DNA from: Novosphingobium aquimarinum
GTDB lineage: Bacteria > Pseudomonadota > Alphaproteobacteria > Sphingomonadales > Sphingomonadaceae
Direction of reading: 5' to 3'
NCBI RefSeq assembly: GCF_009746585.1
Contig: NZ_WRPO01000004.1
Span: 1 to 64,000, forward strand
Length of the DNA: 64,000 nt
Shown here: positions 36,718-42,043 of the stretch, in pieces
Numbering within the stretch: position 1 is the first letter of the stretch
How the letters are laid out: every line of letters begins with the position of its first letter
Translations under genes and position numbers: made by a program
Notes under the pieces: model-generated
Seen by the model: the letters and a program-made list of their open reading frames with translations, nothing else
What the model was told of the DNA's origin: nothing
Databases searched by the model: none

Positions 36718-37356
36718 TCAAGCAACCAACAGAGTGCGATCGTCGGAATTCGCGATCTTGGTCAACTCGGCAAAGAAGGCATCGATGGCATCGCCGGTCA
36801 GCACGAAGTCGTGGCGGGAGTCGGGCAGCTGGCCGGACTCGATGACTTTGCTGAGCATGGAGCGCGCGCGGCAAATCCGGCTCTTCACGGTTCCGAGCGC
36901 GATGCCGCAGATTTCCGCGATCTCTTCGTAAGACAGGTTGCCGGCCGCTACGAGAATGAGCGCTTCGCGGTAGCTTGCCGGAATGGCCGCCAGGGCGCGC
37001 AGCACGTCACCGAGTTCGACCGAGCTATCCTGACTGGCAGGGGCGCACAAAATGCGCTCGGCGGTCAGCTCGTCATATTCGCCATGAAAGCGCGCGCGGC
37101 GCGCTTCGCTGTAGAAGTGGTTGCGCAGAATGGTGAAAGTCCACGCTTTGAAATTGGTGCCTGCGGCGTAGCGGTCACGCGCAGCCCAGGCCCGCAGCAT
37201 GGCTTCTTGCGCGAGGTCGTCGGCGCGGTCACGACACCCGCACAGCCCCCGTGCAAAAGCACGAAGATGCGATGCAACCTCCGTCAGCGCCCGCTTGAAA
37301 TCCTTGTCGCTAAGTGCCTGGACCGTCTCTGTCTCAGTTTCGACTGTTGCCGGCAT
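36718..37356 (-). CDS. EcfG-family RNA polymerase sigma factor (second copy)
   Basis: 212 residues. Region 2 (LRAFARGLCGCRDRADDLAQEAMLRAW at about 31-57, split by family-typical residues) and region 4 (YEEIAEICGIALGTVKSR) match EcfG. It lacks a neighbouring nepR but has its own exact EcfG promoter and a receiver-domain gene behind it. It is a paralogue of the sigma factor at 40740; the C-terminal ~40 residues are longer than in that copy. Both would recognise the same promoters, with this one acting as an amplifier. Confidence 0.92.
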   Translation of the reverse strand: MPATVETETETVQALSDKDFKRALTEVASHLRAFARGLCGCRDRADDLAQEAMLRAWAARDRYAAGTNFKAWTFTILRNHFYSEARRARFHGEYDELTAERILCAPASQDSSVELGDVLRALAAIPASYREALILVAAGNLSYEEIAEICGIALGTVKSRICRARSMLSKVIESGQLPDSRHDFVLTGDAIDAFFAELTKIANSDDRTLLVA

Positions 37357-37391: not shown

Positions 37392-37417
37392 AACGCGGCG
37401 CGACGTCGAAAGGTTCC
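37392..37417 (-). promoter_or_regulatory. EcfG-type promoter of the second ecfG
   Basis: Read on the minus strand: GGAAC (37413-37417), 17 nt, CGTT (37392-37395), with the start codon 36 nt downstream. It makes the second sigma factor part of its own regulon. Confidence 0.72.
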
Positions 37418-37503: not shown

Positions 37504-37547
37504 AAAAAAATGAGGCCCCTGCACTCGGGGGGAGCGGCAGGGGCCTC
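37504..37547 (-). terminator. Rho-independent terminator of the candidate small RNA
   Basis: Perfect 11-bp stem (GAGGCCCCTGC at 37512-37522 with GCAGGGGCCTC at 37537-37547), 14-nt loop, followed on the minus strand by seven Ts (37504-37510). No protein gene on the minus strand ends nearby, so it must serve a noncoding transcript. Confidence 0.82.
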
Positions 37548-37606
37548 GGGGATCGGATCACCACCGGAGCGGGGGGGGGGGTGGGGTGGGGTACCAGCGG
37601 TGATAT
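37504..37606 (-). ncRNA. Candidate EcfG-dependent small RNA with a C-rich loop (GsrN-like)
   Basis: An exact EcfG promoter (37613-37638) points into this stretch, and no credible protein is encoded. The predicted ~100-nt transcript starts near 37606. Positions 604-594 pair with 567-557 (two G-U pairs included) to form an 11-bp stem closing a 26-nt loop. The loop holds CCCC, ACCCC and a run of eleven Cs. A terminator hairpin (arms 37537-37547 and 37512-37522) and seven Us end it. This is the build of Caulobacter GsrN: stress-sigma promoter, 5' C-rich loop that pairs with G-rich leaders, 3' terminator. Homology itself has not been tested. Confidence 0.62.
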
Positions 37607-37612
37607 TCGAGG

Positions 37613-37638
37613 AACGCCGCACCGGGAGATTTGGTTCC
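37613..37638 (-). promoter_or_regulatory. EcfG-type promoter of the candidate small RNA
   Basis: Read on the minus strand: GGAAC (37634-37638), 17 nt, CGTT (37613-37616). The distance from the -10 to the terminator U-run is about 110 nt. Confidence 0.68.
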
Positions 37639-37850: not shown

Positions 37851-38642
37851 ATGTCCGTATCCGATCAGATCAGTGTCCAGCTGCCCTATTTGCGCCGGTA
37901 TGCGCGCGCGCTAACCGGGTCGCAACACTCAGGCGACGCTTATGTTCGCGCAACACTTGAAGCCGCGCTTGCGGACAAGGAATTGCGGAACGCGATCGCC
38001 GGTAGCCGGGCGGCGTTGTATGCTGCCTTCACTCGCATTTGGTCGACGGGCCATGTCGAAGAGCTGGGCGCGACCAACGAGATCGGCACGCACGAAACCG
38101 CGGCGCAATCCCGCCTCGCCAACGTGGCGCCGACACACCGTCAGGCGCTCCTGTTGACGACGGTCGAAGAATTCTCGCACGAAGAGGCCGGAGAGATCCT
38201 CGACGTTTCCGCCGGCGATGTCGATGATCTGGTCGCTCAGGCGATCGAGGAAATCGAGAGCGAGTCGACCACCGACGTCCTCATCATCGAAGACGAGCCC
38301 TTGATCTCGATGCAACTGGAAGGTCTCGTGTCCGATCTCGGGCACAATGTGGTCGGCACCGCGGCCACGCACGCCCAGGCAGTCGAATTGTTCGAGCGTC
38401 AGCGCGCCGGTCTGGTCCTAGCCGATATCCAGCTGGCCGACGGCAGCTCCGGCATCGAGGCGGTGGAGGATCTTCTCAAGTTCGGGGATGTCCCGGTGAT
38501 CTTCATCACCGCCTATCCCGAGCGCCTGCTCACCGGCCAGCGCCCGGAGCCGACGTATCTGGTCACCAAGCCGTTCCAGGAAGCCACCGTCCGCGCCGCG
38601 ATCAGTCAGGCGCTGTTCTTCGGTTCCAGCCGCCCGCTCTGA
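37851..38642 (+). CDS. phyR: Response regulator PhyR (sigma-like anti-anti-sigma factor)
   Basis: 263 residues. The first ~135 residues mimic an ECF sigma factor (regions 2- and 4-like) and the rest is a receiver domain with D192 in LADIQLADG and the ITAYPE and TKPF motifs. Once phosphorylated, the sigma-like part binds NepR and releases EcfG. GAGG precedes the ATG. Upstream, GGAAC at 37774 followed by GGTT with a 15-nt gap is only a poor EcfG match. The rest of 37639-37850 shows nothing else. Confidence 0.95.
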   Translation: MSVSDQISVQLPYLRRYARALTGSQHSGDAYVRATLEAALADKELRNAIAGSRAALYAAFTRIWSTGHVEELGATNEIGTHETAAQSRLANVAPTHRQALLLTTVEEFSHEEAGEILDVSAGDVDDLVAQAIEEIESESTTDVLIIEDEPLISMQLEGLVSDLGHNVVGTAATHAQAVELFERQRAGLVLADIQLADGSSGIEAVEDLLKFGDVPVIFITAYPERLLTGQRPEPTYLVTKPFQEATVRAAISQALFFGSSRPL

Positions 38643-40449: not shown

Positions 40450-40558
40450 GTTATGTGTCGTTCGATGTTTCTGGACTTTGTGTTAGTCAGCCGGAAACAG
40501 CGTCGGAAATGCTTGACCGTTTTTGGGACAAGCGCAACGATGTTGCGAAAGGGAGTCC

Positions 40559-40747
40559 GTGTTGAGTCAGCAAAAGCCGCCCAAGGGGCCCGAGCGGATG
40601 CCCGGTTTGCCTCCTGAAACCCTTCGAGATGGCGAACCGGGTTGGGCAGTCGGCTTGCGCAAACTTTATAACTCGGTCGTGGACGAACCCCTTCCCACCA
40701 GCTTCGACGATTTGCTCAAGAAGCTGGATGATGGCGAAGATGGCTGA
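40559..40747 (+). CDS. nepR: Anti-sigma factor NepR
   Basis: 62 residues. The conserved core GLRKLYNSVVDEPLPTSF, two amphipathic helices that clamp EcfG or PhyR, is unmistakable. There is no in-frame ATG close to the core; the start is GTG at 40559 or TTG at 40562, with GGGAG at 40551-40555 fitting the TTG spacing better. The stop codon overlaps the ATG of ecfG (ATGGCTGA), so sigma and anti-sigma are made in a coupled ratio. Confidence 0.9.
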   Translation: MLSQQKPPKGPERMPGLPPETLRDGEPGWAVGLRKLYNSVVDEPLPTSFDDLLKKLDDGEDG

Positions 40748-41318
40748 GTCCGACGCAGCCCCGCCGATAGCCAACTATAGCGATGAGGATTTCCGAGACG
40801 AGCTGCTTGCGACTCTGCCGCATCTTCGTGCCTTCGCGCGCGGCTTGTGCGGTCGTCCCGATTATGCGGACGATCTGACTCAGGAAGCGGCGATCAAGGC
40901 ATGGACGGCGCGTGACCGGTATCAGCCGGGGACGAACTTGCGCGCGTGGACCTTTGCTATTCTGCGCAATCATTTCCTTAGCGAGTTGCGAAAGACCCGG
41001 CGTCAGACCGATCTCGATGATGGCGCGGTCGAACGCATGCTGGTGATGGAGGCCGACCAGGAAGGCGGTCTGCACCTTTCGGATATGGAAGATGCGCTGC
41101 GGCAACTCAATCCGGAGCGGCGCGAGGCAGTGCTCCTCGTTGGCGCAGGCGGTTTCACATACGAAGAAGCCGCTGCGATCGCGGACTGTGCCGTGGGCAC
41201 GATGAAAAGCCGCGTCGCTCGCGCCCGCACCGATCTGGCTAGAATTCTGGATACCGAGCCGGGCGAGATTGCCGCAGAAACCAACCGAAAGAGGCCCGGC
41301 CTCACCAAGCGGCGCTAA
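40740..41318 (+). CDS. ecfG: RNA polymerase sigma factor EcfG
   Basis: 192 residues. Region 2 (LRAFARGLCG, DDLTQEAAIKAW, AWTFAILRNHF) and region 4 (YEEAAAIADCAVGTMKSRVAR) are of the EcfG family. It is the general stress sigma factor held inactive by NepR. The ATG overlaps the nepR stop; longer frames upstream lie within nepR. A strong terminator follows. It and the sigma factor at 36718 would read the same GGAAC...CGTT promoters. Confidence 0.94.
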   Translation: MAESDAAPPIANYSDEDFRDELLATLPHLRAFARGLCGRPDYADDLTQEAAIKAWTARDRYQPGTNLRAWTFAILRNHFLSELRKTRRQTDLDDGAVERMLVMEADQEGGLHLSDMEDALRQLNPERREAVLLVGAGGFTYEEAAAIADCAVGTMKSRVARARTDLARILDTEPGEIAAETNRKRPGLTKRR

Positions 41319-41440: not shown

Positions 41441-42043
41441 TCAGGCCGGATAGACCCAGGGCGTTCCGCGGTCGAAGTTGTCCGAAGCAAACTTCCAGTT
41501 GAGCAGGTTCTCAAGCACCGCCTTCACATAGGCCGGGCGCTTGTTCTTCTGGTCGAGATAATAGGCATGCTCCCAGACGTCGATGGTGAGCAGCGGGTTG
41601 ACGTTTTCGGTGATCGCCGTCCCCGCGTCATGCGTCGACATGACCTTCAGCTTGTCGCCATCGACGACCAGCCAGGCCCAACCGCTTGCGAAGTGGTTGA
41701 CGGCCTCGTCGGTGAGCGCTTCGAGCAGCGCATCCATCGAACCGAAATCGTTCTTGATCGCGGTGGCAAGGCTCTCGCTCGGCTCGGACTTTTCCGGAGC
41801 CATCGAGTGCCAGTAGAAACCGTGATTGTAGACTTGCGCCGAGTTGTTGAAGAGACCGCCCGAGGCGCTCTTCACGATTTCCTCGAGCGACTTGCCGGCC
41901 TTGTCGGTTCCCTCGATCGCCGCATTGGTCTTGTCGACGTAGGCCTTGTGGTGAGCGCCGTGGTGAACCTCGAGCGTATCGCTCGAAATGTGGGGGGCCA
42001 ACGCATCCTTGGCGTAGGGCAGCGGCATCAGCGAAATGGTCAT
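41441..42043 (-). CDS. sodB: Superoxide dismutase, Fe/Mn type
   Basis: 200 residues. Metal ligands sit in EVHHGAHHKAYV, NHGFYWHSM and DVWEHAYYLD. The segment AQVYNHGFYWHSM points to the iron form. It removes superoxide in the cytoplasm. AGGACC lies before the ATG. No EcfG motif is visible in the 260 nt upstream; that stretch also holds the terminator of the lipoprotein gene. Confidence 0.95.
   Translation of the reverse strand: MTISLMPLPYAKDALAPHISSDTLEVHHGAHHKAYVDKTNAAIEGTDKAGKSLEEIVKSASGGLFNNSAQVYNHGFYWHSMAPEKSEPSESLATAIKNDFGSMDALLEALTDEAVNHFASGWAWLVVDGDKLKVMSTHDAGTAITENVNPLLTIDVWEHAYYLDQKNKRPAYVKAVLENLLNWKFASDNFDRGTPWVYPA

Follow-up and report, generated by a model that had tools for sequence, protein, structure and literature searches.

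The phyR locus of Novosphingobium aquimarinum

The window, meaning the whole stretch of DNA analysed, comprises 64,000 nucleotides of N. aquimarinum contig NZ_WRPO01000004.1. It contains phyR, nepR and two ecfG-like sigma factor genes. In the established pathway, PhyR takes NepR from EcfG under stress. Between phyR and the second ecfG copy lies an interval for which a small RNA of the general stress response had been predicted, and the features of this region are as follows.

36718..37356, minus strand, ecfG2, a second ecfG-like sigma factor gene downstream of the RNA (Pfam Sigma70_r2 and r4_2)
37392..37417, minus strand, EcfG-type promoter motif belonging to ecfG2, GGAAC-N17-CGTT (read directly)
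37504..37607, minus strand, predicted small RNA of ~100 nt (5' end deduced from the promoter)
37504..37547, minus strand, intrinsic terminator (hairpin 37547-37512, its 11 outer pairs perfect, followed by A and then by seven T at 37510-37504)
37548..37556, minus strand, unpaired linker of 9 nt, CCGATCCCC in the window
37557..37567, minus strand, 3' arm of the hairpin, CCGGUGGUGAU (from sequence, fold and alignment)
37568..37593, minus strand, C-rich loop of 26 nt with 20 C and one run of 11 C, poly-C type, the proposed pairing region
37594..37604, minus strand, 5' arm of the 11-bp hairpin, AUCACCGCUGG (from sequence and fold)
37613..37638, minus strand, EcfG-type promoter of the small RNA, GGAAC-N17-CGTT (read directly)
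37851..38642, plus strand, phyR, response regulator with sigma-like domain, the divergent neighbour (Pfam PhyR_sigma2, PhyR_sigma-like and Response_reg)
40523..40747, plus strand, nepR, anti-sigma factor (Pfam NepR, 41.8 bits)
40629..41318, plus strand, ecfG1, the copy beside nepR, with an uncertain start codon and overlapping nepR as listed (Pfam Sigma70_r2 and r4_2)

The original prediction described an exact EcfG promoter, an 11-bp hairpin with a 26-nt loop, and a perfect terminator with seven Us, and all three can be read in the sequence. On the minus strand GGAAC occupies 37638-37634 and is followed by a 17-nt spacer and CGTT at 37616-37613. The 11 pairs of the hairpin include G-U, and its loop, said to be almost all C, is certainly C-rich, although at 77% the wording was slightly strong. 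The interval 37606-37509 folds at -46.1 kcal/mol (z = -7.3), a stability that none of 200 dinucleotide shuffles equalled. Two covariance models, R1 built from five sequences and R2 from 32, both match 37508-37609, the R2 score being 62.4 bits, and the divergent phyR lies 242 nt from the R2 model start.

Three open reading frames of at least 60 aa cross the RNA, all on the minus strand (112, 72 and 86 aa), and the two searched against Pfam, those of 112 and 86 aa, had no match. Loop lengths among 100 relatives fall into every modulo-3 class (45, 42 and 13), so the interval does not behave as coding; conservation of a coding type, which the original prediction had named as evidence against itself, was not seen.

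The placement next to a second ecfG also holds. EcfG2 is 50% identical to EcfG1 over 159 aa and has no NepR match in the ~1.5 kb searched on either side, the nepR-ecfG1 pair being separate, 3 kb away from the RNA at 40523-41318. Beside ecfG1 is a gene for an Fe/Mn superoxide dismutase (41441-42043), a neighbourhood that recurs at two loci considered below (L343 and L344).

Distribution of the family

By blastn, the RNA was found in four of 60 relatives, always between phyR and ecfG2. The covariance models reached considerably further. With R1, matches came from 152 of the 397 genomes searched in the window's family, spread over 40 of 96 genera. For the order, R2 at E values up to 0.01 picked out 96 of 296 genomes; every one belongs to that family, three of them solely by matches below 40 bits. 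Across the class, R2 matched nine of 385 genomes at E values up to 0.1, four belonging to the window's family and five outside it with 25.8 to 34.5 bits. On reading, four of these five look like chance, and the other (L040) is hairpin-like and lacks the promoter. This last sequence, L040:1501-1574, from another alphaproteobacterial family (G682), has a hairpin with the loop CCCCCCCUCCCUGCA and a terminator and scores 34.5 bits with R2; the EcfG motif is absent from the 60 nt upstream.

A pattern scan of named genomes gave at least 118 loci. Eighty of these were scored with R2, of which 52 reached at least 62 bits, all in Sphingomonadales according to their titles, and 28 had no R2 match. The genera represented among the 52 include Novosphingobium, Erythrobacter, Qipengyuania, Porphyrobacter, Croceibacterium, Tsuneonella, Pelagerythrobacter, Citromicrobium and others. 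Within Novosphingobium itself, 72 of 100 genomes carry the RNA at 50 bits or more. Second, weak matches in three genomes (G964, G901 and G032) were rejected on reading, as they share neither the promoter nor the loop, as was a weak match in G977, where no C-run follows a promoter motif.

The search with Rfam covariance models that the original prediction proposed returned no family at the curated gathering score, either in the window or in 15 homologous loci. The 6C RNA (RF01066), which is C-rich as is the window's RNA, scored 27.1 bits where 47 are required (E = 0.16), over only the linker and terminator stretch 37562-37507, and this was taken as chance. In the open literature on sphingomonad small RNAs linked to EcfG, PhyR or general stress, the top-ranked titles and abstracts do not describe the family, and six small-RNA terms are all absent from the S. 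melonis general stress response transcriptome paper (PMC6599016). Judged by sequence comparison, the window's feature is a member of a real, conserved family of predicted RNAs that is absent from Rfam.

Structure and covariation

For the analysis of covariation, 100 sequences selected from the loci on hand (65 from Novosphingobium and 35 from other genera) were aligned by fitting them to the structure (alignment A3). In this selection 93.7% of cells are paired and 24 of 27 pairs have changed in both partners; none of 500 shuffles was as high on any of five measures, and structures slid by 1 to 3 columns gave only 30-48% paired. The compensatory changes that had been suggested as a check on the 5' hairpin are present in sphingomonads, with 8 of the 11 model pairs of this helix changed on both sides among the 100 sequences. 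In the terminator helix the same is true of all 16 pairs. Because A3 was fitted to a structure, the same 100 sequences were also aligned by sequence alone, and here double changes were found in 16 of 20 predicted pairs, including five of eight in the first hairpin. The linker is also well-conserved, each position of GATCCC being retained at 95% or above in the A3 consensus. The element thus behaves as a structured RNA, both of its predicted stems covarying.

Promoter motif and EcfG control

A relaxed form of the promoter motif, GGAAC-N15-18-[CGT][AG]TT, precedes 98 of the 100 homologues, compared with 42 of 2000 stretches taken at random from these loci, and lies 3 or 4 nt ahead of the point where the model begins. 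Loss of promoter and stem in relatives, which had been named as grounds for abandoning the proposal, is therefore not seen: the motif is retained and the stems covary. The -10 element of the 98 matches reads CGTT in 45, CATT in 43, TGTT in eight and GGTT in two. The EcfG consensus of R. etli is given as GGAAC-N16-CGTT in the part of PMC3892343 consulted, and EcfG control is therefore less certain for the 43 members with CATT. As far as the promoter motif can tell, the RNA looks EcfG-controlled.

Linkage with phyR

In all 69 strong Novosphingobium matches that share a contig with phyR, the RNA is divergent from it, with its 5' end either 148-264 nt or 1428-1570 nt from the phyR start; in the remaining three genomes with a strong match, the contig bearing the RNA has no phyR. 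RNA and PhyR also tend to occur together. Among 100 Novosphingobium genomes, 71 have both, one has the RNA only, eight have PhyR only and 20 have neither (Fisher p = 1e-13, kinship ignored and the RNA cut-off set at 50 bits).

Two of the genomes with PhyR only, G919 (L343:6212, minus strand) and G008 (L344:6066, minus strand), contain diverged copies of the RNA at 33-34 bits. These have the promoter motif, the loop AUCCCCCUCCCCCCGAACCC and a terminator; phyR is 5.8 kb away, with a superoxide dismutase gene in between. In G987 the RNA is absent from the 3.5 kb read, although the genome has both PhyR (66% identical) and an ecfG2-like gene. PhyR was present in 18 of 30 genomes without a good model match (19 loci), and in a crude, unvalidated scan of these 19 phyR loci none combined the promoter motif, a run of at least four C and a terminator.

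A separate observation concerns PhyR itself. It is absent, at E 1e-30, from 21 of the 100 Novosphingobium genomes, 20 of which also have no strong RNA match, so that loss of the general stress switch seems to be common in the genus.

Two loop types and the second ecfG

The larger family contains two types of loop, something that could not be seen from the window alone, where only the poly-C type is represented. The common type was defined by a loop containing CCTCCCGTCC; its core, CCUCCCGUCC, is present in 62 of the 100 aligned members, its usual form is GAGACCCCCC(C)UCCCGUCCAAGC and the common loop reads CCCCCCUCCCGUCC. It is found in all 35 members from other genera and in 27 of the 65 from Novosphingobium. 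Retention of the unpaired 10-mer CCTCCCGTCC by every one of the 35 non-Novosphingobium members is what would be expected of a binding site, and the persistence of this unpaired sequence from genus to genus is the best sign that the loop serves for pairing. The other 38 members, the window's among them, are of the poly-C type; all are from Novosphingobium, and their longest C-run varies from 5 to 17.

An ecfG2 homologue of more than 60% identity lies downstream at 36 of the 38 poly-C-type loci and at none of the 62 common-loop loci. The flanks examined varied from ~500 to 1400 nt, and ecfG2 starts 143-764 nt downstream where it is seen, so that a few of the absences may be artefacts of unequal flank length. 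The association between poly-C loop and ecfG2 may represent a single evolutionary event in one clade.

Two further observations were made in passing. At 37611-37638 the RNA promoter also reads EcfG-like on the opposite strand, as GGAAC...GGTT directed toward phyR, and overlapping divergent EcfG-like promoters of this kind occur at 11 of 38 poly-C-type loci and at none of the 62 others. Elsewhere in the same genome, on contig C4 (L006:1501-1527), a run of about thirty C lies just past an apparent reading-frame end.

Proposed function and the search for targets

We consider it probable that the conserved element in this interval is the gene of a non-coding RNA, made by EcfG RNA polymerase in general stress, and that this RNA works in trans, its exposed C-rich loop base-pairing with G-rich stretches of mRNA at Shine-Dalgarno sequences or in leaders. 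The first part of this proposal, that of a general-stress small RNA, was also that of the original prediction, and comparison of promoter motif, compensatory stem changes and position beside phyR strongly supports it as a candidate. In the sequence of events envisaged, stress would cause PhyR to bind NepR, freeing EcfG; EcfG1, EcfG2 or both would then transcribe the RNA, the 5' hairpin of which would present the C-rich loop for base pairing. By analogy with GsrN of Caulobacter, pairing may alter the translation or stability of stress mRNAs.

Attempts to find the targets by pattern searches (loop complements, and GGGAGGGG or GGGGTGGGG before ATG, with one of the sites listed in the multi-genome search followed up) gave nothing convincing. 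In G152 a 17-base complement of the common loop precedes an ATG, but it lies on the opposite strand to two minus-strand genes and no gene starts there. Upstream of ATG in 12 genomes, the sequence GGGAGGGG has 209 occurrences and its reversed control 59, a difference of 2.2 to 7.5 fold depending on the genome; this excess can be accounted for by ordinary Shine-Dalgarno sites. In the organism's own genome GGGGTGGGG precedes ATG at eight sites, against one in the control, and the two of these with open frames of more than 200 aa were discarded as both lie inside longer frames.

A different mode of action should be considered here, namely that of a global anti-Shine-Dalgarno RNA. A CUCCC core in the loop would mimic the tail of 16S rRNA and repress many mRNAs at their ribosome-binding sites, rather than activating specific mRNAs through G-rich leaders as GsrN does. 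It would in this resemble the alphaproteobacterial RNAs with CCUCCUCCC (the ar14/cuckoo type), which have a C-rich unpaired loop with an anti-Shine-Dalgarno core. They share the C-rich unpaired loop with the window's RNA, which differs in having neither CCUCCUCCC nor an Rfam match and in its location at another locus. CUCC is found in 92 of the 100 loops, comprising all 62 of the common type (in part a consequence of how the class was defined) and 30 of the 38 of the poly-C type, and the common loop makes six contiguous pairs with a typed GGGAGG test site. Pairing with Shine-Dalgarno sequences is thus possible for most members. It is not the rule for all, since eight poly-C-type loops have no CUCC, and as the window's loop is one of the eight, pairing with G-tracts is more likely in its case. 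That no Rfam family of this kind matches, and that the excess of GGGAGGGG is equally given by ordinary Shine-Dalgarno sites, also tell against global repression, which we regard as possible and rather less probable than the targeted trans-action proposed above.

Relationship to GsrN

According to the passages of PMC5869019 available to us, GsrN is the sole EcfG-dependent small RNA with demonstrated action, and its C-rich loop pairs with katG (Tien et al. 2018, PMC5869019). Its expression is sigma-dependent, and it is processed to a 5' isoform of 51-54 nt. The original prediction saw the plan of GsrN in the window's RNA, and as an analogy this stands. Both have an EcfG/sigma-T-type promoter, which here lies directly upstream, and both are ~100 nt in length with an exposed C-rich loop toward the 5' end and an intrinsic terminator, features that are predicted for the sphingomonad RNA. 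In the same passages, gsrN genes are typically near regulators of the general stress response, C. crescentus itself being the exception, and the present RNA is close to phyR, nepR and ecfG. The differences lie in the loop of the sphingomonad RNA, which is GAGACCCCCC(C)UCCCGUCCAAGC or poly-C, in its divergent orientation from phyR, and in the katG site, which was not seen.

The agreement in promoter class, length, 5' C-rich loop, terminator and genomic setting could also be read as common descent, in which case the RNA would be a true orthologue of Caulobacter GsrN, inherited from a shared ancestor and with katG as its main target. A search for GsrN-like genes, using the promoter together with CCCCCCGA (deduced from the target motifs given in the part of PMC5869019 seen), found nine places in eight of 385 genomes. 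All nine were folded and phyR was sought beside four; one alone, L216, has a hairpin, a terminator and a nearby phyR. Belonging to a further family (G728), L216 combines the EcfG promoter motif and terminator with a hairpin bearing CGCCCCCCCGAC, and appears to be a GsrN-like RNA near phyR, which speaks for common ancestry. However, R2 found nothing above 12 bits in L216 with filters off, in a comparison that used this GsrN-like sequence in place of Caulobacter GsrN itself, and its maximum outside the window's family among the 385 class genomes was 34.5 bits. Nor is the proposed pairing with katG borne out. The gene is present in 30 of 41 genomes of the genus, but inspection of the 200 nt before the katG profile match in the window's organism revealed no G-run of five or more, leaving katG unsupported as a target. 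Orthology is accordingly improbable in our view. In the sections of PMC5869019 consulted, BLASTn relatives of GsrN are confined to Caulobacteraceae and Erythrobacter litoralis has no apparent gsrN-like gene; other Erythrobacter records carry the present RNA, E. litoralis itself not being among those examined. The GsrN-like RNAs of Rhizobiaceae, as described there, are defined by transcript evidence, promoter and position, and are likened to the present RNA by description and not by sequence. What we retain is the inference, drawn by analogy, that the family may work like GsrN.

Two readings dispense with a trans-acting RNA altogether. The position of ecfG2 downstream on the same strand, in the window as at the 36 poly-C-type loci, might suggest a cis-acting leader or attenuator of that gene, but a strong terminator precedes ecfG2, which has its own promoter motif, and at all 62 common-loop loci the RNA stands without an ecfG2 of more than 60% identity in the examined flank, making such a role very unlikely. 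Equally hard to credit is a DNA-level element, in which a quadruplex in the G-rich complementary strand (G11-T-G4-T-G4 on the plus strand of the window, with C-runs of up to 17 in poly-C-type members) controls the phyR and ecfG2 promoters and the RNA is a by-product, as the common loop has no such repeated tracts and stems, promoter motif and terminator are all conserved.

Implications

An evolutionary scenario can be put forward tentatively. A large sphingomonad lineage, the one examined relative of which, E. litoralis, is reported to have no gsrN-like gene, would have its own small RNA of the general stress response, unrelated in sequence to GsrN. In one group of Novosphingobium the arrival of a second ecfG would have gone together with the exchange of a nearly invariant seed loop for a poly-C loop of variable length, the duplicated stress sigma factor perhaps evolving as a pair with a small RNA that had acquired new targets.

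If a second, separately recognisable family of RNAs with EcfG promoters does adjoin phyR, this would point to post-transcriptional output as a general part of how alphaproteobacteria respond to stress. With a loop that hardly varies in most aligned members, the targets are testable, and the change of loop that accompanies the second ecfG would be a natural experiment in how regulatory RNAs switch targets. For Novosphingobium and Erythrobacter, the family provides a concrete gene to delete.
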